From Volutella citrinella (Eukaryota > Ascomycota > Sordariomycetes > Hypocreales > Nectriaceae), in NCBI GenBank assembly GCA_034401135.1, contig JAWZSP010000003.1, positions 2,790,001 through 2,854,000 on the forward strand: a stretch of DNA of 64,000 bases. The letters run 5' to 3'. The notes below the pieces were generated by a model, which had not been told where the DNA came from, ran no database searches, and saw nothing but the letters and a program-made list of their open reading frames with translations. The position numbers were made by a program, and so were the translations under genes. This document shows positions 3,001-20,806 of this stretch, piece after piece. How positions within the stretch are numbered: the first letter of the stretch is position 1; every line of letters starts with the position of its first letter.

Positions 3001-6000
3001 CTGAGGCCAAGGCCATCTTTCCTCCCCAGCAGCCGCGCCCGAAACGGCCACCCGCATTGAGCGCATTGAATCCTTGGCCATCAGGTACTGTCGGTACCCT
3101 GCGAGCTGTGGCTGTCGGACGTGCAGATTCATTTCACTTCTGCAGGCACTGGCGAGGCAGCCATGAATCCACGCCGTGGTCCGTGGGCAACTGGGCAGCC
3201 AACAATCCGCCCGACCACCCTCCTTCACCGCACAAGGCAAACAAAATTGCGTGGCCAATCTTCAATAGGGGGTGGTGGAAACTCCGTGCCGCGAGCCTGC
3301 GATTCTGTTCGCATGCGATGCCCTGATGCCCCGAGAGCCAAACCGCCGTCCTGCCCCCAGCAAGAACAGGCGTCTATGCAACGAATGGCGCCGCTATTTC
3401 ATGAGTCTTTCGTGTAGCTTTGCACCTCAAAGTGCATCAAAGTGCAGCCCAGTCCATACAAGAACACTTGCGTAGAGTTATGGGGTCAACTGCCTCGCTC
3501 ATGTCCAAGGCGATTGACCTCACCGAGACAGATCTCAACCTTGACGCAGCCGACGTGCATAGTACTTCTTTGTCCCTGGCGCCTGGTTCTCAGCGCGTCA
3601 ACACCCGCCTTTGTATGCCGTAGCTCGCAGAGTGGGTGCAGCTGAGTATCTTAACGCCCCCTGGCGCCAACTCGGCAGCCCCGAGCAGCACTATCGACTT
3701 CAAGTCTCGGCACCAACTCGTCGCAAGGCCCAGGCAGATGGTCTGCAGAAGCGGCCAAGGACAGGGTCCGAAACGCGAGCCTTTGGGTCGGATGGGCCGC
3801 ATGGTTGTTTCGAGTTGCCTGTGTGTGCTGCCATATGCCACACTGAGCGGGAGCCTAGTTCCACGTGTTCGAAGGGAGAGATGCGCCATTCGAGTCAACC
3901 GGTGCCATGTCTGTGCCACTACGGCCTGAGTGGTCCCTCATGACGCCCAACAAAGCCGCCCGCCCCCCCAAGTTGTGACAACAGTTGCCAGATGCAGCAG
4001 AGGTTCCTGTTGGCCGAAGCGCCAAGGGAACGATGAGGTTGTTTTCTCTCGGGGCCAAGAGCCTGCAACTGCATGAGACTTGTTGTAGTGGTGTGTGCAA
4101 GGGCTGCCTGCAATGGCGCAGCATGCTTCTTGCAGGAGTGTCATCCGGGAGCCCATCGTTCAACGCCTAGTTTCCTCTTCAATAGCCTCATGGTGGGAAA
4201 AGATGTGTCTCGACTATGTTGCCTCTTTCCATGTGCTCTTGTCTCCCGATTCGTGGGCTGCGCAGCTAGTACCACACACGCTGGCTAGACCCTGGTGTGG
4301 GAACAGCCTCGCCGCCACAGCGTCTCGGATATTGCGTTGCCTGTGGCGTGCTCTGCTGGAGTGAGAGAAGAGGAAACAGGCAAGAGACCAATCAATCAGT
4401 CCACGCTCACAGAAACTAAGCAGAAAAAAAAAAGCATGGTGATGAATGATGAGGGGTGGGTGAGCATGCGTCCTTCGGGGGTTCTAGGCTGACCCCTCTG
4501 ACGCGCAGGTCAAGAAAAGCAAAAAGTGGCTGCAGACAACATGACGCTAAAAAAAAATCTTCAACAACGACGGGACGACGGGGTACCGATCCAGTGCCTT
4601 CCACATTGTCCTTGATCAAAGTTACGGCAGGAGCAGCAGACGGGAGGCAATTACCATCCCGGGCTCCAGGCGCTCACCGGGCTGTTGCGTGCCTGGCCAC
4701 TCCCCCAAGCCCACACACCAAGTCACTGCAAGCCGAGCCCAGGGCCTAGAACCCTAGCCCCCCCTGTAGGCTGTACTACTGTAGGGCTACAAGCCTCAAA
4801 GACAGGCCCGTGGAGTACCTAGGGCCTAGTCGCCACGAGTCGGAATGGAACCTGCCCTGGCTACAACTTTCCGGGGCGCTACATGTTGCCTCCCCAGCTG
4901 ACTAGCGCTGATCTGCATCTTCTGATCGACTGTCAATGCTCTGCCTGAGAAAACAGTTCGCGACAATGCGCTTAACCCCCCCACAACGCATCGCCAAGAG
5001 AGACGAGATGATGTCCATCATCTCTCTGCTCCACCCACCTGGGCAAACCGGGGAAACGACAAATCGTTGCCGCATCACAGTGAGACAACAGCCAGCGGGC
5101 GCGAATTTGGACAATCTCTCTGTCACTCGCCCCAGGTGCCGGGGTTGTCCAACTGAAAGCTCGCGACATGCAGGATCGTACGGATAGCGAACGACATGTC
5201 ATTTATCACCCCAACCGAGCAGAACTGTATCTCCATCCACGTCGACACAATACTCTCACAGGTTTTGCTGCGCTGAATGCAGACAGCTACGGGTGATCAA
5301 TCCTTGCGGCTGGGAGGCGATATGTATCACGCAAAATATCCTACAGCGACAACTCCCTCCCTCCTGGGTGCTTCCCTGTCGGGACCTGAAACCCTTCCGG
5401 CGGCTGCACCACTGCCCACGCTGTGGCGTCACTGGCGTGTCCCATCTACATCCCATGTGGACATGCCACTGGTCCCAGTGTTGCCTTTGCGCTACTCAAT
5501 TCCAACCTCGCTTCCCACCTCAACGTTTGCTGCACCCGCCCAGGAGATGCAGGCGACAGAAGGATAAGGAGTGTCAACGCATTGCGGGTCATCAATTGCA
5601 TGCCAAACAGCTTTAATCCAGCTTGCACAGTGGGGACATGGGCAGAACCTTGGTTGTAGCGCATCCACTTGGAAGTCAATCCTACATACAGGCTGGCCCA
5701 AGGCCTCCACTTTGGCCTTCGACTGGCACACCGCAGAACTACCCGCCCCCCAATCACCGCAGTGTAGATGAAACTCAATCATTGGCTAAAAAAACCAAGT
5801 ATGAAGGCTTCTGGGCGGCATTTCGAAGAGATGAGATGACCTCTGAGAGCTCAAACGTTGCCTACCAAAAGATGTTAGTGCCAATGCCCTACACGTTGCG
5901 CAAGCTGTGCGGCTGTGTGACCATACCAGCCCGCACAAACCAGTTGACTCGATAAACTTAATAGATGCGGTATTTATATACGAACTTGCCATTTAATTGC

Positions 6001-6584
6001 AGTTCATTTATGCTCCCTCGCCCTAGCTGGGTAGCTTTGACATCAAGCTCAAGCTCAAGTCCGGATGAATGACGCAAGTCTAGGGTAAGTGACTGATACA
6101 ACCACATCACGTGGCACTTCCAGGAACTACTAAGGGAGATTATATATTACGATTTGGGATAGACAGTTATCGAGTATAAAAAGATTATTGACCCTTTGTC
6201 CCAAGGCCTTCGCCCTGGTGGCTGTGCTCAAGTGGCAGACGAGCCTTCTGAACTGCTAATGACACTACATATAGGTTGCTCCACGGTTTATGACCACAGT
6301 TCGAGCCCTTGAAGCAGGGCATAAACAGATTTAAAAGAGAATGACACGTCTCATTGGAAAACAGCCATGGCTTCTTTACATTTCCGGATGTCAATTGTCA
6401 GTTCGACTGTTGATGGTGCACCACGATAGCCCGCCCGGCTGGTGAAGGAAAAAACGTGTAGATACCGACGACATACAATGAGGGGAGTACTGGGAACTTG
6501 AGAAGTATTGGAGTTTGATGCTTGGGTACAGCTCTGCGGAATCTTCCTGCTGTCTGATACTGGTTCTGAAAGTGACTCAACATT
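1..6584. other. Long region without a recognisable gene
   Basis: Open frames here are short, overlap on both strands and show no known motif or convincing exon chain. One minus-strand frame (546 to 157) has a loosely repeated acidic/hydrophobic segment, but nothing supports it as a gene. AT content rises near 5.9-6.4 kb. Box-B-like strings near 596 and 2551 lack a matching box A and cloverleaf, so no tRNA is called. The stretch ends at the target site of the LTR retrotransposon. Confidence 0.6.
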
Positions 6585-6589
6585 CAATG
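6585..6589. repeat. Target-site duplication, left copy (CAATG)
   Basis: CAATG directly precedes the TG that opens the 5' LTR, and the same five bases follow the CA that closes the 3' LTR. A 5-bp duplication is usual for Ty3/Gypsy integrases. Confidence 0.95.
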
Positions 6590-6845
6590 TGTTGCGGGCA
6601 CGAGGCTACGCAGGCAGGCACGAGGCTGCGTCACGTGACGGCGACGCCTGTAGCCGCGCCTCTCGCCCGCCTCACAACGCAGCTCTTTAGACTTCTTGCA
6701 CCAACCTTCTGCTTCACAAGCTTTGCCCTCAAAAGCTAGCACAAGGTTGGAACGAGTCCCTCTCACTCAATACACTCATTTGATCACTCAATCTTTGCTT
6801 CCCGCACTCTCTTTTCTACGTGGCACAACACCTAGTTCCACCACA
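6590..6845 (+). repeat. 5' long terminal repeat (256 bp)
   Basis: Begins TGTTGCGGGC and ends TTCCACCACA, the TG...CA form of retroelement LTRs. Read base by base it shows no difference from 19006-19261. It contains a near-duplicate of about 13 bp (GGCACGAGGCTACG and GGCACGAGGCTGCG, from about 6597 and 6618) and a 12-bp palindrome CGTCACGTGACG. The pyrimidine-rich 3' half is typical of a fungal transcription start region. It should hold the promoter and 5' part of the genomic RNA. Confidence 0.97.
6629..6640. promoter_or_regulatory. 12-bp perfect palindrome with CACGTG core in the LTR
   Basis: CGTCACGTGACG is its own reverse complement and contains the E-box CACGTG bound by bHLH regulators such as Cbf1-type proteins. 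The second copy lies at 19045-19056 in the 3' LTR. Its position upstream of the pyrimidine-rich segment fits an upstream activating site; use by a specific regulator is inference. Confidence 0.45.
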
Positions 6846-6860
6846 TGGTAGCAATTGCAC
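6846..6860 (+). other. Probable tRNA primer-binding site
   Basis: TGGTAGC starts at the first base after the 5' LTR. TGG pairs with the CCA end of any tRNA, and TGGTAGC pairs with a 3' end reading GCTACCA, as in yeast initiator tRNA-Met, the primer of Ty1 and Ty3. The match beyond seven bases to this organism's tRNAs cannot be judged without its tRNA set. Confidence 0.6.
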
Positions 6861-7206
6861 GTTTTCCTTGCTCTGACGCGGAAGACACGATCGGACTCAC
6901 CTCACCCAACCTTTGCTCACGCTTTTCGCGAACCTACGCTCGACAGGGTCGCAGTCAGACGCTATCGAACAGAAATCCCATCTATTCGTCCGTCCTTATC
7001 AAAATCGGTGGCGCCACCACCGTTGTGAACGAACCCGTTCGCAGCTGGTCGACTTCCTCGTGAAGTCGGGGACCTTACGGCAGGTCCAGTGTCTTCGGAT
7101 TCTATAATAGCCATTAATTTGGCGAGCTCTGGAGTATCCAGCTATCAAGCTCCAAGCGAAGTCTCACCTTTCTCTGAACCCCCAAACAACCTTTTCCACT
7201 GGACGC
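6846..7206 (+). other. Untranslated leader of the retrotransposon
   Basis: 361 bp between the 5' LTR and the gag ATG. No long ORF is in frame with gag. After the primer-binding site this stretch is where a packaging signal would be expected; no distinctive element is recognised by eye. Confidence 0.5.
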
Positions 7207-9513
7207 ATGCCGCCCAAAAAGAAAGAAAAAAAACCCAACCCTGCAGATCGACCACGAGGACCAGACGGACGCTTTCTGCCTCGGAACACTGCTGGAGAGC
7301 GCGCACAAATACCACCATCAGTCCCCTCTGAGGACCTCCCTCCTCGCGGATCGACTACATCAGCTTCACAAAAACAATCTCATTCTCCGACCCGGTCAAC
7401 CCACTCAACAGCCGCGTCCTCTTCTCAGCAGACTGCCCGCCGCGTCGACGCGTCACCAGCTTCAGCGCGCGCAGGTGCTACTTCTGTCAGCCCGAACCCC
7501 TCCATTATCTCCTTCCCGCCACGAGTGGCGTCTTCCTCAGCTTTCTCCACTCCTTCCCCGTTCAGAGCTGATCCTCCTGGATACGTGCGGCCTGAGCCCA
7601 CTGTACCTGCCAGGACATTGGAACCAATCCAACCAGCAGGCCCAACCAGACCACCCTGGGAATCTCGACACCTCCCCGCTCAGCTGGAAATCAGAACACC
7701 ATCATCTCGACAACCTCTCTTCAGAGCCGCTCTGGAAGAACCAGTGACTGATCAACCTTCCTTGCCCAGCCCGACACCTGGCTACATTCCTGGAGCCTTC
7801 TCCTGGAGGAGCCCAGCTTACGCCCTGCCTAGCTCGTCTCAACCTTCTCTACCCTCACTGAGCCTCACTCCCCTACCCTTCCGCGTGCCCCACAGAGCCC
7901 GCTCTGACCACACTATGGGAGACGTTCACGGATCGCCGCCACTGGCTCCTGAAGTCCCTGCTGGGCTCGGAGAGAACACCCCTATCGCCCAATCCAGCGC
8001 TCAGAACGACGCGGTCATGCTGAACTTTGCCGCTTCTGACCTGGAATTTCGCCATCGGACTGACTTGCTGACACCTACGGTGATGGCTAAGGTCGAAGGC
8101 GTCCTTCAGTGCATGGGCCCTGTGCAAGCTCGACGACTGCAAGCCGACCTTCTCAATAGCATGTCGTCCGGTGACTGCCTCCTTCTCACCCCAGGTGGCC
8201 TGGAAACTGTGTGTGCTCGTTTTGTACCAGCTCGCTCACGCCAGGTGAGCACGCGGCCTGCCTCTCGTCCTCCTTCTCGAGCCCCTTCCCAAGCCGGAGA
8301 CGTGCCCACATACCCTGCCCGTCGTGAACGGTATGAAGCCAACTATCGGGACCAACACGTATCTACCAGCCACACAGCTCGGGAAGAGAGACCTTTCCGC
8401 CAGCCGGCCGCCGCGTACTTGACGTCTCGCCGGTCGGTGCGGCCCTCTGATACAGCCCATGCCACTTCGGCTAAGCGGACCTTCAAGGCAGACGTTCTGG
8501 CCCTGGACACCACTAAAACGGACGTGACTTCATACATCAACCAGCTCACTTATCTCGTCCGACATTATGGTGAGGATCAGGTCCTGGCCAACATAGTCCC
8601 AGGACTACTCAGCCGTCCTGAATCCGATGGGTGCCAGTGGTTCAACTCACTGGATTTTGAAACACAGGACCGTCTCAGTCATGACATCGACCTATGGCGA
8701 CGACTGCTGGAGCAACGCTTCAAACGCGACCGCGGTGCCATCATGATTGAAGCCGATGGCCTGCAGCACCGTTTCAGTACCGAGAGCACTCTATCCTTGC
8801 AAGCCTACCTAGACCGCAAGACGCGCCTATACAACGAGGCCGGCGACATGGACGAAGACGCCAAGGCCCGCCGGATCCTGATGGGAGTCGACCCCTCGTT
8901 GGCAAAGCTGGTGTCTACCGATCAATATCCGCTTTCCTTGGAATTCGTCAAGAGCCAACTCACTGCTCGCCAATTTGCCGCTCGGCGAGACTGGGAATCT
9001 CTGCAGGACGCCATCAAAGCCACTACAGCGTCCCTGTCTTCCCAATACCGAGCTCGCAACGACAATGCGGAACGTCGCTTCGGCGGCTCACGCTATGACA
9101 AGACCGACTTTCAGAACGCAAGGTCTGACACCAGATACGGAAGGTCCGATCGGCAACCCTTCAGGGACCGTGATCCCGCCCGACTGGACAACCCGCGGCA
9201 AGAAAACCCACGGCAGGACGGGAATCAAGGCAGCAGACAGGGTCCTGATGACGCCAACACAAAGAACGCCAATCAGGACACCCGACGCTTCCGAAACGAT
9301 GGTAGACGGACCGTCACGCTGAACCCACAGGAAGCACGAAACTTCTTCGGGTCCAATACACAAAAACCTGTACAAGCGTACGTGGTGGAAGGTGTGGACG
9401 GTTCAGCTCAACTATTCCCGATGAACGTGGAAGACCTTGACTCTGATGAAGACGCGGTGGACGCGGGGGACACTGACCCAGTCCGGTCGGACTCGGAGAA
9501 GGAAAACTTTTAA
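7207..9513 (+). CDS. gag: Gag capsid protein of the LTR retrotransposon, without zinc knuckle
   Basis: 768-residue structural protein expected to build the cytoplasmic virus-like particle. Residues 1-430 are low-complexity and rich in Pro, Ser and Arg. Residues about 439-570 (YINQLTYLVRHYG to MGVDPSLAKLV) form the alpha-helical region typical of retrotransposon Gag. Residues about 620-690 are Arg/Asp/Asn-rich and probably bind RNA. The C-terminus is acidic. The usual CCHC zinc knuckle near the Gag C-terminus is absent; no CxxC occurs anywhere in the protein. The frame is stop-free and ends TAA at 9511. The pol frame (-1 relative to gag) is already open from 9477, overlapping the last 37 nt of gag. 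Confidence 0.9.
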   Translation: MPPKKKEKKPNPADRPRGPDGRFLPRNTAGERAQIPPSVPSEDLPPRGSTTSASQKQSHSPTRSTHSTAASSSQQTARRVDASPASARAGATSVSPNPSIISFPPRVASSSAFSTPSPFRADPPGYVRPEPTVPARTLEPIQPAGPTRPPWESRHLPAQLEIRTPSSRQPLFRAALEEPVTDQPSLPSPTPGYIPGAFSWRSPAYALPSSSQPSLPSLSLTPLPFRVPHRARSDHTMGDVHGSPPLAPEVPAGLGENTPIAQSSAQNDAVMLNFAASDLEFRHRTDLLTPTVMAKVEGVLQCMGPVQARRLQADLLNSMSSGDCLLLTPGGLETVCARFVPARSRQVSTRPASRPPSRAPSQAGDVPTYPARRERYEANYRDQHVSTSHTAREERPFRQPAAAYLTSRRSVRPSDTAHATSAKRTFKADVLALDTTKTDVTSYINQLTYLVRHYGEDQVLANIVPGLLSRPESDGCQWFNSLDFETQDRLSHDIDLWRRLLEQRFKRDRGAIMIEADGLQHRFSTESTLSLQAYLDRKTRLYNEAGDMDEDAKARRILMGVDPSLAKLVSTDQYPLSLEFVKSQLTARQFAARRDWESLQDAIKATTASLSSQYRARNDNAERRFGGSRYDKTDFQNARSDTRYGRSDRQPFRDRDPARLDNPRQENPRQDGNQGSRQGPDDANTKNANQDTRRFRNDGRRTVTLNPQEARNFFGSNTQKPVQAYVVEGVDGSAQLFPMNVEDLDSDEDAVDAGDTDPVRSDSEKENF
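9477..9513 (+). other. gag/pol frame overlap, candidate recoding zone
   Basis: The pol frame has its last upstream stop (TGA) at 9474-9476 and stays open through the gag stop at 9511-9513, a 37-nt overlap in the -1 direction. Slippery-looking bases (GGAAAACTTTTAAG) lie just before the gag stop, but no perfect X-XXY-YYZ heptamer is aligned to the gag frame. Either a non-canonical -1 shift or termination/re-initiation could express pol. Confidence 0.4.
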
Positions 9514-9578
9514 GTCGGTCGCTTGAGGGGCCAGAGCTTCCGACACCTCTGTGTGACCCCTCGCCAACACCAGGAAGC

Positions 9579-12500
9579 ATGAGCCAGCATTCAACGAACA
9601 GCATCCCTAAATACGCTCGCAACCCTGTGATTCTGTCCTATACAATTAACGACGTCGACTATCAGCTGCATACATACTCTCAGCTCAAAGGCGTGGTCCA
9701 CACTGGCACTGGATCATCCCTCGTTATTCTAGACTCGGGAGCGCCTCTTAATCTCATTGACCGATCTTTCTTGGAGCTACACTACCCTAGCGTTAAGGAA
9801 GAAACTCTCCTCAAATCCTTCCGAGTTGGCGGCATCGGCAAAGGCGGCCCTATTGTTCGCACGACAGCACGCGTTCCCCTCCAATTCCAGACAACGCAAG
9901 GCGAGATCCTCACTTACTCGGCGTCCCTGTCAGTGGTGGACCGCTTCGAGCACGGCATGCTTCTGGGCACCCACTTCCTCAAGGAAGAGCGTCTGAACAT
10001 TCTGTGGGGAAGTCGAGAACAGAACGATCACCTGGACGCAGGACAAGGCCGTCTCATCCCAGTCAGCTGTGTGTCGAAACGGCGCCCCGGCAAGCACGAC
10101 CCCGACAAAACATACGCCGTCTACGCATCTGAGTCCTTCTCGCTGAAGCCGGGACAGGGCTACAATGTCAAGGTGCGGCACGCTGCGACCCCGCTGTCAG
10201 CAGCTGGATACATTTTGGAGGCTAAACCTATCTTCCACCATGGCGCTGTCGGTATGACTTTCGCCTCTCTCATGAACGCTGTTGTACACGGGCAGGAGAT
10301 GGCTTACCCCATGGCGAACATGGGTGACCTACCGGTGCAAGTGAACAAGGGTGACCAACTGGGCCTGCTGCGCCCGACCCGCATTACCTCCGAACCCCAA
10401 GTTTTCATATCCAGCCCTGATGCTGCTATCTCGCTCTCTGATTTACTGGGAGACGACTGTCCTGAGACTGAGCCGGAAAATGCGAACTATCCCGACGGAT
10501 ACCCATTCCACCTCCCAGAATCAGACGCCGGCCCACCTGATCTCAGGGCTGTGGACATTTCTGACCATTGGGGAACGGAGTACAAAGCCAAGATGTCAGA
10601 TATTATTGGGAAGTACAGTCACCTCTTCCGGAAGGAATTAGGCCGTTTCAATGATGGAATCGAAATGCCGATCAATTTCAAGGACGGTGTGGACATCAAC
10701 GACTTGGGCCAACGGCCTTTCTCATCCAGTCAGCGGGACAAACGGGCAATGGACGACATTGTGGGTCCCCTACGACGCATGGGTGTGGTGGAACGCGTCC
10801 CCCTAGGTCAGCCAGTCCCAGCAGCTTCGCCAGCATTTATTGTGTGGCGAAACGCAAAGCCTCGCATGGTGGTCGACCTCCGCCGAGTCAACACCAAGCT
10901 CCAGCTGGACGCATACCCCTTGCCAACCCAGGACGACGTTCTTTCTTCACTACAAGGCAAGGTCATCTTCTCCGCACTTGATCTGACCAAAGGCTTCTTC
11001 CAGCAGCCCATCAAGAAGGAAGACCGATGGAAAACGGCATTCGTTACCCCTCATAGAGGCCATGAGCAGCTTACCGTGAGCACTATGGGTTTGGCCACTA
11101 GTCCAGCTTTCTTCCAACACCGCATGGAACACCTCTTCCGCAAATACCTGTGGGATTTCGTTATGATCTATATTGACGATATCATCATTGCTTCAAAATC
11201 GCCGGAGGAGCATCTGACGCATGTCGAGCTTTGCCTGGACATCCTGCTGAAGTCTGGGTGCACGATGTCGCTGGAGAAGTGCCATTTCGCCCAGCCCGAT
11301 CTACAAGCACTAGGCCATTGCGTGTCCCGCCTAGGCCTTAGCACAACAGAGGAAAAGACCCGCGCGATACGCGACCTAGACCTCCCCAGAACCTTGAAAG
11401 ACCTGGAGACCGGCCTGGGACTGATGGGCTACTATCGCAATTTTATCGACCACTACTCCCATATAGCTGAGCCGTTGGTCAAGATCAAGACCCTAGGCTT
11501 TCGCAGGAGTCCCACCAAGGGTCAGGCACGCCGGAACTGGGCCGATCGCACGACACTGCCTCCCTTGGAAGCCATTCCCCCAGGTGCCAATGAGCAAGAG
11601 CAAGCCCGCGCTCGCAAGGAAAATGATACGCGCCGCAAGTTGTGGAAGGATGCTGAAGCCGCTTGGGAGGAACTGAAGTCGAAACTCGTCGATGCCGTGG
11701 CGCTGGCCTTTCCTGACTGGACCAAGCCATTCGAACTGCATGTTGACGGTAGCAAGGAACGAGGCTTCGGCGGGGCGCTACACCAAATGCAACCCGATGG
11801 AACCATGCGACCGATTCTGTTCATTTCTAAAGCGCTGTCCCCTGCGGAAAAGAACTACGGCTCAACTGAACTGGAGACAGCCGCGATGGTCTGGGCCCTC
11901 CAGAAATTGTCTCATTACCTGGACGGTGCTGTCATCGATGTGGTCACGGACCATACAGCAATCCGGGACACCTTCCAGAGCGCTGGTTCCGGCAAGCCCA
12001 AGGGAAAATACCGACTGGTCAACTGGCGCCTGTACCTGGACGGCCTTAAGAACAATATTACGATCAAATACCGTTCTGGACCAACCCACAAGAACGCGGA
12101 TGCCTTGTCACGAATGTCGACTCGCCCTACACCTTCACCTATGCCTGACCCATCTGCACCGGAACCCACCATCGTGACCCCAACCGTCAAGGTGTATGCA
12201 GTAACACGAAGGGGAGCCCGCTTGGCCACAGCAGCGGAAGTCGACGTCAGCAAAGAGGCGCCCGACAAGGAAGCGCTGGGGAGCTCCCTGGACCTGCAAG
12301 TCGCGGACGAGCAGACACCGATCGCACAGGAAATCGGCAGTGAGGCGGACGGCCTCCTAGCTCAATCTTTGCACCTGTCGCCCGAGTTTGTCGCCGAACT
12401 GACAGGGCTTCTCCCCACGGACAAAACCTTCCGCCGTATATATGCTCAACTGACGAAGCTGCTCGATGACGGTTTGGAACCAGTTTTGCACCTATTCCGG

Positions 12501-13871
12501 CTGGACCCGAAAACCAGGCTGTTATACTACGACAACGACGGGACAAGTCGTCTCTGCATCCCCTCGAAGCTCATCCCCAAATTCTGCGGCCTGGGCCACG
12601 ACAGCCGCGCGCACTCAGGCTCGAACCGTACATACCAATTCCTGCGTCAATCCCTCTTCTTCCACGACATGAAACGGAAGCTTGACGGTTGGATTCGGGC
12701 TTGCCCTGAGTGTCAAAAAGCGAAGCCCCGGCGCGGCCAGGCCTACGGCGACATGCAACCTGTGCTGTGCCCCCGAGTGCCCTTGTCCACGCTCTGCCTT
12801 GACTTCATAGTCGGCCTCCCAGAGGACGAGTACGGGCATGAATCGATTCTTGTCATTACCGATAAGCTCACGAAATTTATCAAGTGTATTATCGGCAAGG
12901 CAACATGGGACTCCGCACAGTGGGCAGAACGATATGTCACAGACGTATACCCAGACTGGGGCATGCCCGATACCTTTGTGCACGACGTCGACCCAAAGCT
13001 GGTGTCGCAACTCTGGACGTCACTCTGTCGGGCATCAGGTACTTTGGTGCGGACCAGTGCAGCCTACCACCACCAGGCGAATGGGCAATCGGAGCGCAGT
13101 GTCCAGACATTGATGCACGCTCTACAATCTCAGATAGGCGGCAAATACATTCAATCCGACTGGCCACGAACACTAGCGCACACTCTGCACTGCTTGAACA
13201 CAACTTGCAGCACAGTGACCGGTTCGTCGCCCTATGAGCTGCTCTTCAACAGACTGCCGCGAAGTCTGTTGTCACCATCACACCTGATGAGGGACGATGT
13301 GGGATCCTTCGGCCAGGACCATAGCCAGCGACACGAGTCTGCCCGCGACGCGATTGAACTGGCGGCAGCCCGGGTCAAGACATACTACGACAACCGACAC
13401 ACGCAGCCTCCGAAGATGAACGTGGGCGACCTGGTGTACGTCAAGCTAGCCAAACCTGGGAGGGACGGTTACCACCTCCAGAATCAGACCAAGCTGTCCC
13501 ACCGTCGTACCGGACCCTTCCCAATAAAGGCCCGCGTCAGCGACCTCCGCTACGTGATCGACCTGCCTCCGCACCTCCACTGGAAGCCGGAGATATCTGT
13601 TGAACACCTGGAGCCTGTCTTCCCTGGCACTCGCGCAGCTCTACCACCTGGCCCCTTGCGAGTCTATGGCAGCGACAAGTACATTATCGACAAAATCATC
13701 AACCATCGGCGCCGAGGTGGCCGTGTCGAATATCAGGTGTCTTGGTTGGGCTACGACGAAGTTACATGGGAGCCAGAGCACACCTTGCGGGAGGATGTGC
13801 CGAAGCTGCTGGAGTTGTACAAGTCGGTAAACCGCGAGGAGAGAAAGAAAGCCAACAGGAGAGACAGCTAA
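9579..13871 (+). CDS. pol: Pol polyprotein: protease, reverse transcriptase, RNase H, integrase, chromodomain
   Basis: 1,430 residues. In order: aspartic protease with active site DSGAP (about 52-56); RT with catalytic D468 (SALDLTKGF) and the YIDD box at 531-534; RNase H with HVDGS around D723 and TDHTA later; integrase zinc-binding head (H-x4-H, then CPEC near 1042) and D,D-35-E core D1075, D1136, E1172; a GPY/F-like module near 1309 (RRTGPF); and a C-terminal chromodomain at about 1368-1417 with WLGYDEVTWEPE. This order defines Ty3/Gypsy chromoviruses. All catalytic residues named are present. The frame is open upstream to 9477, so pol could be made as a Gag-Pol fusion by -1 frameshifting or by re-initiation at the ATG at 9579, 66 nt after the gag stop. 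Confidence 0.96.
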   Translation: MSQHSTNSIPKYARNPVILSYTINDVDYQLHTYSQLKGVVHTGTGSSLVILDSGAPLNLIDRSFLELHYPSVKEETLLKSFRVGGIGKGGPIVRTTARVPLQFQTTQGEILTYSASLSVVDRFEHGMLLGTHFLKEERLNILWGSREQNDHLDAGQGRLIPVSCVSKRRPGKHDPDKTYAVYASESFSLKPGQGYNVKVRHAATPLSAAGYILEAKPIFHHGAVGMTFASLMNAVVHGQEMAYPMANMGDLPVQVNKGDQLGLLRPTRITSEPQVFISSPDAAISLSDLLGDDCPETEPENANYPDGYPFHLPESDAGPPDLRAVDISDHWGTEYKAKMSDIIGKYSHLFRKELGRFNDGIEMPINFKDGVDINDLGQRPFSSSQRDKRAMDDIVGPLRRMGVVERVPLGQPVPAASPAFIVWRNAKPRMVVDLRRVNTKLQLDAYPLPTQDDVLSSLQGKVIFSALDLTKGFFQQPIKKEDRWKTAFVTPHRGHEQLTVSTMGLATSPAFFQHRMEHLFRKYLWDFVMIYIDDIIIASKSPEEHLTHVELCLDILLKSGCTMSLEKCHFAQPDLQALGHCVSRLGLSTTEEKTRAIRDLDLPRTLKDLETGLGLMGYYRNFIDHYSHIAEPLVKIKTLGFRRSPTKGQARRNWADRTTLPPLEAIPPGANEQEQARARKENDTRRKLWKDAEAAWEELKSKLVDAVALAFPDWTKPFELHVDGSKERGFGGALHQMQPDGTMRPILFISKALSPAEKNYGSTELETAAMVWALQKLSHYLDGAVIDVVTDHTAIRDTFQSAGSGKPKGKYRLVNWRLYLDGLKNNITIKYRSGPTHKNADALSRMSTRPTPSPMPDPSAPEPTIVTPTVKVYAVTRRGARLATAAEVDVSKEAPDKEALGSSLDLQVADEQTPIAQEIGSEADGLLAQSLHLSPEFVAELTGLLPTDKTFRRIYAQLTKLLDDGLEPVLHLFRLDPKTRLLYYDNDGTSRLCIPSKLIPKFCGLGHDSRAHSGSNRTYQFLRQSLFFHDMKRKLDGWIRACPECQKAKPRRGQAYGDMQPVLCPRVPLSTLCLDFIVGLPEDEYGHESILVITDKLTKFIKCIIGKATWDSAQWAERYVTDVYPDWGMPDTFVHDVDPKLVSQLWTSLCRASGTLVRTSAAYHHQANGQSERSVQTLMHALQSQIGGKYIQSDWPRTLAHTLHCLNTTCSTVTGSSPYELLFNRLPRSLLSPSHLMRDDVGSFGQDHSQRHESARDAIELAAARVKTYYDNRHTQPPKMNVGDLVYVKLAKPGRDGYHLQNQTKLSHRRTGPFPIKARVSDLRYVIDLPPHLHWKPEISVEHLEPVFPGTRAALPPGPLRVYGSDKYIIDKIINHRRRGGRVEYQVSWLGYDEVTWEPEHTLREDVPKLLELYKSVNREERKKANRRDS

Positions 13872-14333
13872 AATTCGACCTACCTTAAATCCCTCTAATA
13901 TTTTTATCTAGAGGTCCGGCCAAGATGCAGCACCCATCGATATCTTGGTTCGAGGCAAAACTCGCAGTGGGCGGTGCTCATGCCCCCAGCCACCGGATCC
14001 CCGGCAGTTACTTATTTTTTCTTCTTCTACCTATTTTATTACGCCAGCTGCCACCAGCTGCACATACAGCTGCCAACAGCCGTCACAATCCATCACCACA
14101 TCAACAAACACTCAGACGCCGACAAACATGCCAGAAATTTTTTCACCTTCCCTTATTTATCTCTCATCTCCCTCTTCTTTTTCCTTCCTCACAACCTCAC
14201 ACCTTCACCATTCTCTTCACTCACCATTCTCTTCACTCGCCATTCTCTTCACATTCCCCATATCAATCTCACACCCGTCAGCAAACCTCAATACCCAATT
14301 AGCCCAATTCCCCCTATCACTTGCGCGGTCACT
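13872..14333 (+). promoter_or_regulatory. Pyrimidine-rich leader between pol and the helicase ORF
   Basis: 462 nt with stops after pol and several upstream ATGs (13925, 13974 and others), so simple scanning from pol is unlikely. The second half is strongly C/T-rich, like the segment just upstream of many fungal start codons, and holds three 16-bp repeats at 14206-14253. The helicase frame is open from 13974, but residues from that ATG would be translated CT-tract (Phe/Leu/Ser/His runs), which argues for the start at 14334. An internal promoter or a spliced subgenomic RNA are the likely options. Confidence 0.5.
14206..14253 (+). repeat. Three tandem 16-bp repeats (CACCATTCTCTTCACT)
   Basis: Copies at 14206-14221, 14222-14237 and 14238-14253; the third differs by an A to G change at its second base and T to A at its last. 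They lie 80 bp upstream of the helicase ATG, in the CT-rich leader. Confidence 0.85.
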
Positions 14334-17300
14334 ATGTCTAGACGCCGCGGCAAGGACAAAAAAACCAAGGCCCAGGGACCTGAACAGCATGATGAGCCTG
14401 AGTCTGCCAAGCTTCTGCCTCAACAGCCCGATGAGTCCAAGCCTCCCAAGCCTGAACCTCTCGAGCCTGGACATTCGAGCAACGAGGATCCAGGCGAGGA
14501 AATCGGTCCTGGTGTGCAAGAGACTCGCGACAGCTACTCTAGCGAGGATCGTGGGACCCGCTCGAACAATTACAGTGTCATCCCTGTCTATAACGGCACT
14601 GTCCCACCCGGTCTGAACAGCGAGACCCTGAAGCGCGCCGGTTCTGGAGCCTTCGGCGGTACTCGATGCCAGATGCAAGTCCGCGTGGGCGAGTTCACTT
14701 CCTCGGAGCTGATTATCTCGTTTTCCGTCAACCACTCCCATTCCCGACACCACGTCGTGTCCCACCACATTCCTCTTGACCAATGTCAGATCAAGATGCA
14801 AGACGTCCCTTCTAATGTCGCCGCGGGTCCGGTAGGCATCCTGCTGGGCGTCCGACGGGAACCTACGGCACTGGCCAACGCTTCCCGTTCGGGCAAGGAC
14901 GCTTGGCTGCAATTCTTGGACTACGACGTGGAGCCGGAGCCTGTCCCAGAGGACGACGTGCCTTTTGAGGATGTTCAGGGACAGTCGATCAGCGCTGACG
15001 ACCAGCTCCCATTCTCTTTGGTGCAGAAACGTTTCCAACGCGTTCGTGTCATTTCAATCACGATCCCGGAGAACGCAATCCTCTTCGTTCTGTCCAACAG
15101 TATGGATCAACCGGCGCGTACAATCTCCGAAGCATGCAAGATGGCTCGCGACCAATTGCACAATTATTTCGAAAACTTGCGGAAAGGAGAACTGTCCCTG
15201 AGCGTTGTCTGCGCCCCAGACGAGAAGTTCGCCGATCGATGGGTTCCACGCCTGACGAACCTGCCTGGTTTCGCGTCCCCATTTGGAGCCTTTTGCAACT
15301 TCAGTCAAGGTGGCCGCCTGGAAGGTGTAACCTTAGTCAACTGGGATGCCGCAGAAGTCCCCCGTCCAGAGTTCCGAGTCCCTGCGACAAACGTCTTTCT
15401 CAATAAGGGTCACCGACATATCTCTCTCATCGGCGGCTCAGCGCAAGAACGGGATTTCCTTCGTGAACGAACGGAACTCTTGGGGAACACCCCGTTGGCA
15501 GTTCTCGCATGCGCTCACCCTGGCAGCGAATGGGTTCGCTCGCCAGCAAATTCCGCTTCTGACTTTGGCATCGAACCGGATGGCACATACCGTCGCTACT
15601 ACTTCATGCTGCAGTGCGACGAGGGCATTCGCGGTCTGTTGCCAGAGGTCGGCCAAGCTTGCATCTTCTACACTCCTCGAGCTGCGTACGATCGAGCATT
15701 GCCCAGCCAGCCCTTGACCGACCGAGAGCGCCAAGACCGTACCACTGCATTCCGAGAAGCCATTCAGGTGCGAATCGAACACGTGGACGCCCTGGTGGAA
15801 GAGCAGGAGGCCGCAGCGCAGGCGAACAAAGCGGCGGCTACCCTTGCATCAGACAACAGTCCAGCTGCGTCGTCTTCGAGCGAGAAGGAAGCTACGTCGT
15901 CAGAGACTGGAGAAGAAGCCGGGTCGTCCGAGGATGGGTCACCCACAGGCGAAGAGGAAACCAGCTCGACAGCTGCGAACCTCTCTCGTTTGGAACTCTA
16001 CACTACTGCGTTCTTGGACATCATCTTTCAGTATATGCCCAATCCAGCAGACGAGATCCGTTCGAAATACCCAGACGCTTCAGACGCTACTCTTCGGGCT
16101 CGATCCACAGAAGCTTTGGCGACGGAACTCGCTACAGCACTCGACCAACAGGGCATCAATCAAGTTTCAGTCATCACCGACTGGGCCCAGAGTCGCGTGG
16201 CACGTGAAGTGGGACATGTCGACGTGGATGACCAGGGCGACGCATGGCATGGTCACCGCTTGCACCTGCCAGCAGACGCCGCAGTGGACATGGCTCTGTT
16301 TGAAGTGACCACTCCAACCCAGCGGGACTGGCCTGATGGCTTGTCCAAACCCCCCATCCGGCCGAGCTTCCGCGTCCTGACGCCCCAGGGCAACCTGGCG
16401 AGCGAGGTACGAGCCATCAACCACAACTGGGCGGAGCACTTGGAACAAGGCCTCGGACTTGACGTTACTCTTTGGATGCCGATCAACTTGGAAACGATCG
16501 AAACTGAGTGTCGAACGGTTGCCGCCCTGGACACTATCTCGAGGGGTTCGAGAGCCGAGAGCTGGTGGAGATACTCGCTTAACTTCATCGCCACCGAGGA
16601 ACCGGTCGCCATGTCAAGCGTCATCCCCAACCTGTTGGGTGCTACTGAGGGGTTGACTGAGCACCAGACAAACATCCTTGGCAACCTTTCTTTCGTGCAC
16701 GGTAGCTGCTTCATCAATGGCGGGCCTGGCTCTGGGAAAACCGCGCTGGCCATTGCCATTGTCAAGGCAGCGATTGCGGCGAATCGGAACGTCGTGTGGT
16801 TGGCCCCAGCAAACTCGGTGGTTCATGACGCATTGCAACGCCTGAACCGACTGGAAGGCGCCCGCGTCGCTCGACTCTACCCATGGGATGCTGAAATGAG
16901 CGCCATGTACCCTGACGAGGAGAAGCCACCGTACGACACTTCGCGGGGAACGGCATTCCAGCAGCAACTCTGCCAATTCGGTGATGGGGCACGCGCGAAC
17001 CGACGTTTGTATCGTGAGCCTGCCAAAGATCCGCTGTCCTTGAGTTCCTGGTCGCACACAGAACCGTCCAATTCGGCCAGCTACAACACCTGGCAGGAGT
17101 GCCTGGCCCAGCGTGCAACCACACCTGAGACTTGGAACCCTGATGCCGCTACTCGAGGCTGTGCAAGCGCCGTGCTACGCGAGAAGGCAAGTGGCATGAA
17201 TGTTATCGTGTCGACGCCTGCCGCATACGACCAATATATGCGCCGCGCCCTGCCCCGCGACGAGCACCACCCAGACCTCCGAGCATTCGACCATGCCCTG

Positions 17301-18773
17301 ACGGTCGTGGACGAAACTGGCCGGATGCATGAGGCTCAGAGCCTGGTCGCCCTCGTACACAAACCCAACGCGTATCGCATCTGCCTTGGCGACGTTCACC
17401 AATCGGGCCCCATTAGCATCCTTGCGGACGTACGGCCCCAGTATCATTTCGCCGCTCAACGCGCTACATCCGAGATGATGCGGGTTGAAGCAGCTGGGAA
17501 GATGAACGCTACGCTGTACGAGAATAACCGAGCTCACGGATACGTCGCATCCTGGGCGGGATCGTACTTCTACGGCGGCGAGATGACCTTCCGACATGAG
17601 CGATCTCAACTCAAGCAGCCCATGCGTAACTTCCTCTGCACCTTGGTCGGCCAAAACGAACTGAAGAGCGAGGTCATCCGACTCAGCTGTCAGAAAGCCA
17701 AGGAGGAGCTGGTCGGCACAAGCTACAAGAACCCGATCAATGCCCGCATGGCCGTTTCCATTGCCTGCGCATTCTACCAAGAAGCAGCCGTCAAACACGC
17801 ATCGGATGTGCTACGTGGCGTTGAGGAACCACGAATTGGTACAGTAATGATCATCACCCCGTACCTGGCACAGTGCAATGAGATACAAGGACAGCTGTCG
17901 AAGGTATCTCGATTCGAACTTCCGCTAGACCATGTCGAAGTTCGGACGGTGCAGAACGCGATCGGCTCGGAAGCGGATCTGATCATTGCCGACCTGACCC
18001 GCTCGGAAAAGGCTGGTTTCATTGATGACCCAAAAATGATGGCCGTGATGACAACCCGAGCTACGCAAGGCATGATCATTCTTGGCGGACCGAAGCCTGG
18101 CAGGAACTCGCCCTTGGAATCCTTGTACCGCAACCTGCAAGCACGACAAGCCGACATTTCGGTGGACACAGACTGGTCAAAGATTTGCAGGAAGTGTTTG
18201 GGCCCGGGCCATGACACGGACGCGTGTACAGACGATATCCAGTGCAGGCACTGCTCGACTGAGGCTGCGAAGGGCAAGGGAATCCCACATATTTCCCGTA
18301 ACTGCCAAGCATCAGACCGTCCAGCGTTTCCCGTCGTCTACACCGAACCGGAGTCTCGAATGGTCGACAACATGCGACGCCAGCTGGTTAACTCCACTAC
18401 GTTCACCTTCCGCCCACGCGTGAACCGTGAAGGCCCGAAGCCCCCGCGTCGAGATAGACAGCCTCGTCGCGCAAACATGCCTCAACCTGAAAACCCACTG
18501 GGTGAAGCAGAGGGAGAGGTGGCCACAGTCAGCACCCAAAAACGTGTGCTCACTTACCAGGACATACTGGGACGTGAGAATACGGAGGAAGCGAGTGCTG
18601 CTCTACGCCGCTTGGAACAATCCGGATTCCGACAGGAGGAACCGGTTATGGAGAAAACTGTCACCGCGGTCGAGGATCCTTTGGGCTGGGAACAACTCGA
18701 TGACCAAGGTCTTGAGCAGGATGTCGATGATGAGGAATCGCATCAATTTGGCGATGAGGACGGGCAGTGGTGA
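14334..18773 (+). CDS. UPF1-like superfamily 1 helicase with tandem zinc knuckles, third ORF of the retrotransposon
   Basis: 1,479 residues from the ATG in CACTATGTC (frame open from 13974, but the extra 120 codons are translated leader). Residues 1-70 are basic then acidic and disordered. About 90-760 is an unrecognised region with an acidic Ser/Glu linker near 510-548. The helicase core follows: Q-motif LTEHQTNIL (Q778), Walker A GGPGSGKT (796-803), Walker B DETG (993-996), motif III GDVHQSGP (1019), motif IV IITPYLAQCNEIQ, motif V NAIGSEADLIIADL, and motif VI MTTRATQGMIIL near 1240. This series matches UPF1/SEN1-type SF1 helicases (AAA_11/AAA_12). A canonical CX2CX4HX4C knuckle occupies 1285-1298 and a stretched CX2CX11HX4C copy 1304-1324. 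The C-terminus is acidic. It lies fully between the LTRs and its frame is intact. Role in the element is unknown; RNA remodelling, packaging or escape from RNA decay are possible. Confidence 0.9.
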   Translation: MSRRRGKDKKTKAQGPEQHDEPESAKLLPQQPDESKPPKPEPLEPGHSSNEDPGEEIGPGVQETRDSYSSEDRGTRSNNYSVIPVYNGTVPPGLNSETLKRAGSGAFGGTRCQMQVRVGEFTSSELIISFSVNHSHSRHHVVSHHIPLDQCQIKMQDVPSNVAAGPVGILLGVRREPTALANASRSGKDAWLQFLDYDVEPEPVPEDDVPFEDVQGQSISADDQLPFSLVQKRFQRVRVISITIPENAILFVLSNSMDQPARTISEACKMARDQLHNYFENLRKGELSLSVVCAPDEKFADRWVPRLTNLPGFASPFGAFCNFSQGGRLEGVTLVNWDAAEVPRPEFRVPATNVFLNKGHRHISLIGGSAQERDFLRERTELLGNTPLAVLACAHPGSEWVRSPANSASDFGIEPDGTYRRYYFMLQCDEGIRGLLPEVGQACIFYTPRAAYDRALPSQPLTDRERQDRTTAFREAIQVRIEHVDALVEEQEAAAQANKAAATLASDNSPAASSSSEKEATSSETGEEAGSSEDGSPTGEEETSSTAANLSRLELYTTAFLDIIFQYMPNPADEIRSKYPDASDATLRARSTEALATELATALDQQGINQVSVITDWAQSRVAREVGHVDVDDQGDAWHGHRLHLPADAAVDMALFEVTTPTQRDWPDGLSKPPIRPSFRVLTPQGNLASEVRAINHNWAEHLEQGLGLDVTLWMPINLETIETECRTVAALDTISRGSRAESWWRYSLNFIATEEPVAMSSVIPNLLGATEGLTEHQTNILGNLSFVHGSCFINGGPGSGKTALAIAIVKAAIAANRNVVWLAPANSVVHDALQRLNRLEGARVARLYPWDAEMSAMYPDEEKPPYDTSRGTAFQQQLCQFGDGARANRRLYREPAKDPLSLSSWSHTEPSNSASYNTWQECLAQRATTPETWNPDAATRGCASAVLREKASGMNVIVSTPAAYDQYMRRALPRDEHHPDLRAFDHALTVVDETGRMHEAQSLVALVHKPNAYRICLGDVHQSGPISILADVRPQYHFAAQRATSEMMRVEAAGKMNATLYENNRAHGYVASWAGSYFYGGEMTFRHERSQLKQPMRNFLCTLVGQNELKSEVIRLSCQKAKEELVGTSYKNPINARMAVSIACAFYQEAAVKHASDVLRGVEEPRIGTVMIITPYLAQCNEIQGQLSKVSRFELPLDHVEVRTVQNAIGSEADLIIADLTRSEKAGFIDDPKMMAVMTTRATQGMIILGGPKPGRNSPLESLYRNLQARQADISVDTDWSKICRKCLGPGHDTDACTDDIQCRHCSTEAAKGKGIPHISRNCQASDRPAFPVVYTEPESRMVDNMRRQLVNSTTFTFRPRVNREGPKPPRRDRQPRRANMPQPENPLGEAEGEVATVSTQKRVLTYQDILGRENTEEASAALRRLEQSGFRQEEPVMEKTVTAVEDPLGWEQLDDQGLEQDVDDEESHQFGDEDGQW

Positions 18774-19005
18774 TGGAATGTGATGAGGAATCGGATGTGA
18801 ACTGGAGTTGGTGGACGTTTGCGCGCAACTGTTTTCACTTGGTTTTGTTTTTTGTTTTCCACACATCAAAAGGGGCGACCGGTTTGGCTGAGAAAAGGGC
18901 ATTCAGAGGAGGCGCCCGTAATGGCTTGAGAGCGTTTGATACAGGGAACAGGACAGGAATTGGAACGACATCGGCGAGGACGCCTCTTTTTGCAGGGCCG
19001 GGGGT
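18774..19005 (+). other. 3' untranslated part of the retrotransposon
   Basis: 232 bp after the helicase stop, without an ORF of note. It ends in the purine-rich tract that abuts the 3' LTR. Confidence 0.6.
18994..19004 (+). other. Candidate polypurine tract
   Basis: AGGGCCGGGGG lies one base before the 3' LTR, where the plus-strand primer is expected. It is interrupted by two C residues, so the exact primer is uncertain. Confidence 0.35.
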
Positions 19006-19261
19006 TGTTGCGGGCACGAGGCTACGCAGGCAGGCACGAGGCTGCGTCACGTGACGGCGACGCCTGTAGCCGCGCCTCTCGCCCGCCTCACAACGCAGCT
19101 CTTTAGACTTCTTGCACCAACCTTCTGCTTCACAAGCTTTGCCCTCAAAAGCTAGCACAAGGTTGGAACGAGTCCCTCTCACTCAATACACTCATTTGAT
19201 CACTCAATCTTTGCTTCCCGCACTCTCTTTTCTACGTGGCACAACACCTAGTTCCACCACA
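19006..19261 (+). repeat. 3' long terminal repeat (256 bp)
   Basis: Identical by eye to the 5' LTR along its full length. Since both LTRs are copied from one template at insertion, identity means very little time has passed. It presumably supplies the 3' end signal of the element's RNA. Confidence 0.97.
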
Positions 19262-19266
19262 CAATG
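19262..19266. repeat. Target-site duplication, right copy (CAATG)
   Basis: Exact copy of the five bases at 6585-6589, directly after the 3' LTR. It shows that both ends of the insertion are complete. Confidence 0.95.
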
Positions 19267-20806
19267 ATAAGGCGGATTCCCACCAATTATTCCATGGTCT
19301 TGGATGGTGAATCTTTGATACTCCAAAAGGAATCCAGGATGTCAATCATTGGCTCAGAAAGTATTTTGAAATGTGACAGGCTTGTAAATATCAGCTTCTG
19401 CCTCGGGCCCCCTTACTGTCTCACAGTTGTTACCTTGAAAGTGGGCAATTCTCCGGGCTCGAGTCTACAAGACTGCAGATTATTAAGAACTGGCGGCAAT
19501 GGCGGCGAGTTGACAAATTGCCTGTAGACTCAGACCGACACTCGATGTGGCCATTTGATCCGCAAGTGGACTGCCAACGCCAAGTACCAAGTAGTACTAA
19601 CTAGTGTTGAGCAACTGCATGCACTCACATGTATATATCGTGGATTCCGTCCACGTTGTTGACCTTTCCCCCGTCTAGTAGCATACCGCCATAGCCCGTC
19701 CGAAAAGGTATGCTCGGTTGCGAAACCATGTGTCGTTAGAGACCTTTCGAGTGCCTGTGTGCCATGTTGCTGCCTCTTTGGTCACCGGGAGGCTTTGCTA
19801 TGTAGGTATGCTATAGTGTGGTAGTGACACTATCGTCGCCGACATGGACAAGGACTCAACGCAACTACCCGAGATGCGTCCACGCGTATATCGATAGGCC
19901 ATGGTGCGATATCGGCTAATCTTGCCGGAGAAGCACCGCGACCGTCGTGAGATATGCGCCCGTGGGTTGGACCCTTGGCTCACCTGAACTAGGCCTTGGC
20001 GGGCGCCGTGTGCGGTGGGCGGACGGTCCCATCACGTCACCCCACGACATATAATGGGTACCGTTATAAGAGCGGCCTCGACTCGGACCCCCGAGACGGG
20101 TTATGCGCTGCTGCTCACGCAGCCTGGGGGCTGGCGGCCTAATTTAATTAACAACATGCCCGGAGGCTCGGCCGAGGCATTTGCGGGATGATGTGCCGAA
20201 TCGAGCATGCAAGTGCGCTCTCCGGTGGGTTTTTGCATCTGATGCGAGAGCCTATGAGAGGGCCCACTGGCCATTTCGGGCAGGGATGGCCGTGGTGAGA
20301 GGCCCCAAAGGGCTGAGGACGAGGCCGACGAGACCCCTGGCCGAGATACCTAATTGGGTGGCATTACCGGACCCTGCTATATCCCGTCACGCCAATCAGG
20401 CAGCTGGGCCCCGGAGAGCATCTCGCTCACGTCAAATAGGGGTTCAATGCTACCTCCACGTGAAACCGTTTATGCTTTCGTCCGTCTGGATAAGTGCCAT
20501 TAAGTGGTAGAGGACATCGCCGGTGGTGGATTGTCGGATGCATATCCCCCACCGTAATGGCACTTGGACGGGTAGATCCCGCCATCATTCGGTCAGGCTT
20601 TGTGGTAGGTGACATCCCTGCCGGCATCCTGGGACTCCCTGGCTCGACCCTGAGTGAGTCCCTGGTCCCTTGCGTCCCTGAGTGCTTGATCTCGCCGTGT
20701 ACGCCACAATAAATATCTCGCTTGTTGCCGTCTCTTCACAGGCGTCAACCTCTCGGCACCAGCCAGGCATCTCTGGATACACACTCGTTTTTGTTTGTTT
20801 TGAATC
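19267..20806. other. Intergenic flank after the retrotransposon
   Basis: About 1.5 kb with no convincing gene. AATAAATAT near 20707 could be the TATA-like element of the secreted-protein gene starting at 20807. Confidence 0.5.

Follow-up and report, generated by a model that had tools for sequence, protein, structure and literature searches.

Positions 6590-19261 of the window (the whole stretch of 64,000 nt that was analysed) hold a complete Ty3/Gypsy chromovirus of Volutella citrinella, i.e., a template of 12.7 kb with identical LTRs, TG...CA ends and a short target duplication (Table 1). An earlier note on this DNA had described just such an element, with LTRs, target-site duplication, gag and a pol with chromodomain, together with an intact third ORF of about 1,479 codons inside the LTR-bounded unit, and all of these were confirmed. 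Besides the LTRs, no repeats of at least 40 nt were found in 5500-20500. The primer-binding site pairs with the last 19 nt (16 encoded plus CCA) of a CAT-anticodon tRNA, which we take, from its anticodon and T-loop, to be the initiator tRNA-Met. A 13-mer of this site occurs at seven places in the genome, five of them tRNA-like 3' halves (ARAGORN called no tRNA in these five loci), one the element's own site and one unrelated. Self-priming was considered and rejected, the sole reverse-complement match of at least 7 bases in the LTR and leader being an 8-mer palindrome within the primer site.

The pol product exceeds the Pfam cut-offs for RVT_1, two RNase H models, integrase H2C2, SH3_Tf2-1 and Chromo, while the integrase-core model PF00665 and any protease model are absent from its Pfam list. 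Motif inspection adds a DSG (protease), YIDD and D/D/E-type segments (integrase core), so that the order protease, RT, RNase H, integrase is recovered with protease and integrase core recognised by motif only, and the chromodomain sits at the integrase C-terminus, as in chromoviruses. No canonical slippery heptamer for a -1 gag-pol frameshift was seen in 9441-9520. The gag product shows no CCHC knuckle on motif inspection and no Pfam match at E 0.1. Given that two related gag-pol records (P0005 and P0014) likewise lack a strict CCHC, a knuckle-less gag needs no replacement by the knuckle of ORF3. The element is a fungal chromovirus that transposed recently and is apparently autonomous.

Table 1 Features of the chromovirus and its flanks (window positions)
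Feature	Position	Strand	Basis or remark
Target-site duplication CAATG, left	6585..6589	.	same 5 bp at right flank
5' LTR, 256 nt, TG...CA	6590..6845	+	identical to 19006-19261
Primer-binding site, 19 nt, directly 3' of 5' LTR	6846..6864	+	complementary to tRNA 3' end
gag ORF, 768 aa	7207..9513	+	open reading frame; without CCHC knuckle
pol ORF, 1430 aa	9579..13871	+	protease motif, RT, RNase H, integrase, chromodomain
Reverse transcriptase domain RVT_1 in pol, YIDD present	10854..11318	+	Pfam and motif
Chromodomain PF00385, pol residues 1368-1415	13680..13823	+	37.2 bits, cut-off 25.1
Spacer between pol and ORF3, 462 nt	13872..14333	+	CT-rich, nearly G-free at about 14136-14267
ORF3, 1479-aa SF1 (UPF1-like superfamily) helicase, C-terminal zinc knuckle(s)	14334..18773	+	ATG 14334, stop 18773
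Helicase motif I (Walker A) GPGSGKT	16722..16742	+	motif inspection
Helicase motif II VVDETGRMHEA, DE kept	17304..17336	+	motif inspection
Helicase motif III GDVHQSGP	17388..17411	+	motif inspection
Helicase motif IV NNRAH	17523..17537	+	motif inspection and alignment
Helicase motif V TVQNAIGSEAD, usual Q replaced	17946..17978	+	motif inspection and alignment
Helicase motif VI TTRATQGMIILG	18051..18086	+	motif inspection
CCHC zinc knuckle CRKCLGPGHDTDAC	18186..18227	+	motif inspection
Second, looser C/C/H/C cluster	18243..18305	+	motif inspection
3' LTR, 256 nt	19006..19261	+	100% identical to 5' LTR
Target-site duplication CAATG, right	19262..19266	.	5 bp, matches left flank

The longest open frame between pol and the 3' LTR (13872-19005) spans 1624 codons; the longest reached in any of 200 first-order random sequences was 330. 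The best Pfam match of ORF3 is the C-terminal motor domain AAA_12 (78.7 bits, cut-off 27, E 5.8e-22) and not the viral SF1 helicase model PF01443, which is barely exceeded (22.0 bits, cut-off 21) with no single stretch passing. AAA_30 and AAA_19 also lie above their cut-offs, and the N-terminal motor domain AAA_11 scores 17.6 bits, below its cut-off of 27, though Walker A and DE are present. Walker A, DE, GDxxQ, the arginine of motif IV and the TRA of motif VI are all retained. The earlier claim of every major SF1 helicase motif holds in that motifs I-VI are all recognisable but is slightly generous, because motif V lacks its usual Q (IGSE versus QGxE in the alignment with the host UPF1). The CCHC knuckle was absent from the first description of the locus. 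Two predicted structure models were unusable (mean pLDDT 34 and 37).

The top solved-structure matches of ORF3 are UPF1/NAM7 (E about 1e-7), and it has the SF1 motor motifs in common with UPF1/NAM7 and SMUBP2. However, neither the UPF2-binding CH domain (PF09416) nor the 1B domain (PF18141) of UPF1 was found in it (Pfam, E 0.1), whereas the true host UPF1, encoded elsewhere on contig C3, carries both and is about 24% identical to ORF3. The designation UPF1/SEN1-type was thus too precise, and on sequence comparison UPF1-like is correct only at the superfamily level.

Two in-frame TAA stops in the spacer separate the pol and helicase frames and speak against ORF3 expression by read-through from pol; ORF3 would be translated as a separate protein, and the spacer could possibly serve as its internal promoter or leader. 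No GTRNGT splice donor for a spliced subgenomic RNA was seen in 6590-7260, a search that weaker donors could escape.

No near-identical source gene for ORF3 was found in the assembly. A DNA search, of a kind that misses heavily mutated copies such as the one on contig C9 described below, returned only ORF3 itself and a 93-bp fragment on contig C10, a relative of the Walker A region (29 residues, 76% identity) whose divergence (dN 0.15, dS 0.57 over 30 codons) hints weakly that the protein was once under constraint. This fragment aside, protein-level matches in the assembly are mostly 20-40% identical, the closest being decayed relatives (mostly 25-40%) and an open helicase frame of 784 codons (24%). 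Decayed relatives lie on contigs C1 and C2, and the one on C1 ends in a helicase followed by a CCHC, i.e., in the same order as ORF3. In the protein database ORF3 has weak matches only and no close helicase relative, while pol matches 147 proteins at E <= 0.001, many of them fungal, and owing to this disparity the helicase acquisition looks lineage-specific. Neither ORF3 nor the pol alignment found relatives among viral contigs, phage records yielded none either, and from genome contigs came a single distant relative of pol, in a record whose title names a Bacteroidetes bin. No other element was seen to carry a close relative of ORF3.

A second copy in the same assembly, on contig C9, bears directly on how the helicase came to lie here. 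It is RIP-like mutated and internally deleted, joining element positions 1-683 to 11625-12243, with LTRs and the target duplication TGACT at both ends, and 428 of its 435 differences from the full element (over two long stretches) are C>T or G>A. It lacks the pol-ORF3 junction and keeps the final ~185 codons of the helicase, which start within the first knuckle and run to the stop, followed by the 3' UTR. Used as a query, its stretch 1772427-1773045 returned itself and eight weak matches (about 94-243 bases, 68-77%), as an AT-rich query would probably give. Three further insertions are solo LTRs (99-100%), all of them flanked by a 5-bp target duplication, and having no internal sequence they are silent on the presence of the helicase. 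The family is thus represented in this assembly by at least one full-length copy, a mutated copy with a deletion, and three solo LTRs. These counts are lower bounds, because mutated copies escape DNA searches that use ORF3 or pol plus spacer as the query. As the C9 copy has the helicase 3' end between LTRs flanked by a target duplication, the helicase gene moved along with the element, in at least two integrations, as the earlier note had proposed. Copies without the helicase alongside a near-identical host gene, which that note had named as evidence to the contrary, were not what we found, the sole other copy with internal sequence keeping helicase sequence. On the other hand, a new lineage is not borne out by what this single genome shows, namely one full copy, a deletion derivative and three solo LTRs.

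The pol places the element in the same group (RT, RNase H, integrase) as other ascomycete Ty3/Gypsy chromoviruses, the nearest named being from Ophiocordyceps unilateralis, Cordyceps javanica and Metarhizium majus. This comparison was of proteins only; those from Ophiocordyceps and Cordyceps have a listed chromodomain, as does the present element. A fungal chromodomain element of similar size with an extra ORF has been described (PMC2864245); "helicase" does not occur in the main text of that paper, and on the main text alone the element may overlap the present family. Insect retrotransposons encode SF1 RNA helicases, including fusions with LTR-element proteins, which the available text of PMC5563155 and PMC6338049 describes as of plus-strand RNA virus origin; in contrast, ORF3 matches AAA_12/UPF1-type helicases best, forms a separate ORF downstream of pol and has a CCHC knuckle at its end. 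LTR elements of bdelloid rotifers resemble the present one in carrying a captured enzymatic ORF3 downstream of pol, but there it is a GDSL esterase or a DEDDy exonuclease, according to the text available for PMC5408684. According to the earlier note, no family with a UPF1/SEN1-type helicase between pol and the 3' LTR was known to have been described. Among the matches listed, open-access titles and abstract starts showed no LTR element of a fungus that has an SF1 or UPF1-type helicase ORF (most subscription papers and Repbase lie outside this scope). Precedents for extra ORFs, and for SF1 helicases, in retrotransposons are given in the available text of PMC5563155, PMC6338049 and PMC2864245. 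The element adds a helicase-bearing variant to a known kind, LTR elements with captured ORFs.

We give about an even chance to the reading that a helicase gene entered a chromovirus between pol and the 3' LTR, has stayed with it over two or more integrations and serves it as a remodelling factor. ORF3 would be an ATP-driven nucleic-acid translocase whose CCHC knuckle may bind element RNA or nascent cDNA; while the long template is packaged and reverse-transcribed, its motor may remodel structured RNA or remove bound proteins. We infer an accessory nucleic-acid-remodelling function. The completeness of the element, the C9 copy, the solo LTRs, the retained helicase residues and knuckle of ORF3, the knuckle-less gag, the C10 fragment and the gene order of the C1 relative speak for this reading. 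The single full-length copy, the pol-ORF3 junction missing from the C9 copy, the atypical motif V, the AAA_11 score, the related gag-pol records without a strict CCHC and the lack of a close helicase relative with other elements count against it.

It is possible, if doubtful, that ORF3 is instead a passenger, a host or foreign helicase mRNA gained via template switching or read-through and with no role in the element life cycle. The recovery of only one full copy favours this, as do the abundant pol relatives set beside the missing close helicase relative, since sister elements may then be without the helicase. However, the assembly holds no source gene, matches other than the C10 fragment being distant, so a capture was not recent from the present genome, and ORF3 is intact over its full length with most catalytic residues kept.

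ORF3 might also counter host RNA surveillance, a divergent UPF1-like helicase competing in nonsense-mediated decay or RNA silencing and shielding the long multi-ORF RNA. A long stretch after a stop codon is a layout expected to attract decay, and about 5 kb lie between the pol stop and the 3' LTR. The UPF1/NAM7 structure matches point the same way, and insect retrotransposon SF1 helicases are discussed as silencing suppressors in the available text of PMC6338049 and PMC5563155. Nonetheless, with no CH or 1B domain found and such low identity to the host UPF1, we regard this as quite unlikely.

A late nested insertion of a gene or other element between pol and the 3' LTR of one copy could draw on the CT-rich spacer as its own promoter, and fungal "complex transposons" from multiple insertions are described in the available text of PMC3248453. 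We reject it as very improbable on the C9 copy and the target duplications: in a separate integration with a different duplication, the ORF3 3' end runs on into the 3' UTR and LTR just as it does here, which contradicts it for that end, and no repeats of at least 40 nt other than the LTRs lie in 5500-20500. An assembly chimaera, or a chance LTR pair around a host gene, has in its favour only that a single assembly is the source and is rejected as barely credible, given the matching target duplications, identical LTRs, primer site adjoining the 5' LTR, three ORFs on one strand and second copy within the same assembly.

A broader extension of the remodelling reading, rather unlikely as it stands, is a fungal chromovirus family with its own helicase-plus-knuckle RNP motor. 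This motor would protect or remodel the element's long RNA with its several ORFs, and it may also put host RNA surveillance out of action. On this view, what is left of older elements or source genes of this kind would be seen in the decayed helicase relatives on C1 and C2. The general view is that LTR elements depend on host helicases. An element with its own SF1 helicase and knuckle would offer a direct way to ask whether unwinding or the avoidance of decay limits retrotransposition. The present one also shows an LTR element that captured a gene and then transposed onward with it, in a genome where RIP-like mutation occurs.

The Ty3/Gypsy chromovirus of the window is bounded by two identical LTRs of 256 nt and flanked on both sides by CAATG, the target duplication; it is mobile, was recently inserted and carries three intact ORFs. 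Directly 3' of the 5' LTR are 19 nt complementary to a tRNA 3' end (16 encoded nucleotides plus CCA), and from our reading of anticodon and T-loop we take the primer to be initiator tRNA-Met. The 13-mer core of this site occurs seven times in the genome (once in the element, five times in tRNA-like 3' halves with a CAT anticodon and once at an unrelated place) and a backward control pattern zero times; ARAGORN called no tRNA at the five tRNA-like loci, for which an intron and its bacterial setting are possible causes. In gag neither a Pfam match nor a CCHC motif was found, and the integrase-core model PF00665 is absent from the Pfam matches of pol, in which a DSG protease motif, YIDD and D/D/E-type segments are seen by reading of residues.

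ORF3, the third ORF, is in the same frame as pol, but two in-frame stops lie between them, as does a spacer of 462 nt with a CT-rich stretch nearly without G. The ORF3 region forms an open frame of 1624 codons, compared to a maximum of 330 among 200 random sequences. Above the Pfam cut-offs are AAA_12 (78.7 bits), AAA_30, AAA_19 and, only just, PF01443 (22.0, cut-off 21), while AAA_11 stays below; the best-matching solved structures are UPF1/NAM7, and the top NCBIfam model, the IGHMBP2 helicase, scores far below its cut-off (44.6 vs 348.9). The earlier note had credited ORF3 with every major SF1 helicase motif, which holds for motifs I, Ia, II, III, IV and VI, all of them clear, but less so for motif V, which reads IGSE instead of the QGRE of the host UPF1. 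C-terminal of the motor come a CCHC knuckle and then a second, looser Cys/His cluster. Two predicted structures (mean pLDDT 34 and 37) were left unused.

Searching the assembly with the LTR gave seven places, i.e., the two LTRs of the element, three solo LTRs (99-100% identity, 5-bp duplications CCGCG, TGTGA and CCACA) and, on contig C9, two pieces of LTR, which we read as one integration since they are complementary parts of the 3' LTR with TGACT at both outer ends. In this C9 copy, on the minus strand, element positions 1-683 are joined to 11625-12243 (ORF3 from within the first knuckle through the stop, into the 3' UTR), followed by a ~460-bp insertion, the remaining 3' UTR and a 3' LTR that is broken off after ~121 nt and continues ~45 kb away, the interruption being AT-rich in the part read. 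Letter by letter, 171 of the 174 differences in the 683-nt stretch and 257 of 261 in the 619-nt stretch are C>T or G>A, as are all 58 in the 121-nt LTR piece; C>T changes are most frequent before A and G, a context as expected of repeat-induced point mutation (RIP). A 179-nt 3' UTR piece (54 C>T or G>A differences and 19 others), where overlapping offset matches suggest that a small indel shifts the register, was kept out of this count. In purine/pyrimidine code both long stretches are near-identical to the element (scores 677 and 613, shuffled controls ≤37), so the 3' end of the helicase already belonged to the mobile unit at the time of the C9 integration, a copy without the pol-ORF3 junction. 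Within this one genome, the proposal that ORF3 moved with the element is thereby borne out. The two interruptions of the C9 copy (C9:1726276-1773649; parts read: L040, L041, L046, L015) start with nearly equal letters, as if they were insertions of one mobile family. Elsewhere, a 2208-codon open gypsy frame of another element has identical scores at seven places, apparently intact, near-identical copies in a genome with RIP-like mutation.

A near-identical source gene, which the earlier note had named, together with a lack of the helicase in all other copies, as the sign of a one-off capture, was not found in the assembly: a DNA search with 16000-18900 returned the query itself and one fragment on C10 (protein 76% over 29 residues; dN 0.15 and dS 0.57 over 30 codons), around which no further ORF3 match was found. 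At the protein level, ORF3 matches 12 places, including itself and the C9 piece. In the C2 relatives the protein blocks of one strand run in reverse, from C- to N-terminal, and one segment is repeated, suggesting a decayed tandem array; the C1 relative has helicase then CCHC, an order in common with ORF3, and adjoins a tandem repeat with a period of ~64 bp (L038 8758-9007). The best intact relative found in the assembly is the C6 frame (24% over 492 aa), which is not UPF1 and has in common with ORF3 a W-x-x-E-M stretch after motif Ia; the true UPF1, on C3, has CH and 1B domains and is 24% identical to ORF3. As sole query, the N-terminal region of ORF3 matches itself and the C2 relative (29%), nothing else. 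Around the C1 and C2 relatives, neither gag nor pol had a match that passed E 1e-3, and in the 10 of the 23 longer open frames there that were run against Pfam no retroelement domain was found. With composition correction off, gag has matches on C1 down to E 2.5e-7; we took these for low-complexity matches, since they overlap a Pex2/Pex12 gene.

Features of the element and of related loci (window coordinates, or stretches L0xx and contigs C of the same assembly, G000)
Feature	Position	Description
Complete LTR retrotransposon	6590-19261	
gag	7207-9513	
pol	9579-13871	RT, RNase H, integrase H2C2, chromodomain by Pfam
ORF3	ATG 14334 to 18773	1479 aa
C10 fragment	L044 4592-4684 (G000 C10:694591-694683)	93 bp, 81% to Walker A part of ORF3; isolated
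Decayed C2 helicase relatives	L036 ~5700-9040 (G000 C2:3722700-3726040)	segments ~25-40%
Decayed C1 helicase relative	L038 ~7086-8572 (G000 C1:2787085-2788571)	~30-33%, weaker stretch 20%
C6 helicase frame	L042 5979-8330 (G000 C6:2635978-2638329)	open 784 codons, SF1, AAA_11 + AAA_12
Seven gypsy places	G000 C7:25527 (L035), C9:151178, C11:473330, C1:4038180, C2:4554645, C2:5654064, C3:5421683	

Two protein-database searches with ORF3, each scoring the ~8,000 candidates with most words in common, gave one match at E ≤ 0.001 and two at E ≤ 1, all weak, to other AAA helicases and probably prokaryotic; the pol control gave 147 (e.g., 51% over 98% of the query, 66% over 35%). In a pol tree of 23 rows (the element plus 22 chosen from 120 listed relatives), the element groups with Ophiocordyceps unilateralis (support 91/88), and a fully supported group of five comprises these two, Cordyceps javanica, Metarhizium majus and one further record. 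As far as a mobile gene can tell, this placement makes a hypocrealean ascomycete the probable host. The helicase seems specific to the branch of the element itself, a reading limited by the frequent absence of TE genes from annotated protein sets.

Captured enzymatic ORF3s are known in rotifer elements (PMC5408684) and RNA-virus-type SF1 helicases in insect LINE and LTR elements (PMC5563155, PMC6338049); a fungal screen of TE-derived domains names helicases of the DNA transposons Academ, Kolobok and Helitron (PMC10799480). Judged by titles and the starts of abstracts, the literature searched showed no fungal LTR element with a helicase of the UPF1 type.

The favoured reading gives ORF3 an accessory role in the element; its rivals, which one intact copy does not set apart from it, are that ORF3 counteracts RNA decay or silencing, or that it is a passenger without a role. 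ORF3 would be made as a separate protein, whether from an internal promoter, by re-initiation or through splicing, for which no strong donor turned up. From the motor residues one would expect ATP-driven movement along RNA or DNA, and from the knuckle nucleic-acid binding; given that the gags of P0005 and P0014, two related gag-pol records, are like that of the element without a knuckle, the one in ORF3 need not be a function transferred from gag. Motor and knuckle together may aid packaging or reverse transcription of the 12.7-kb template.
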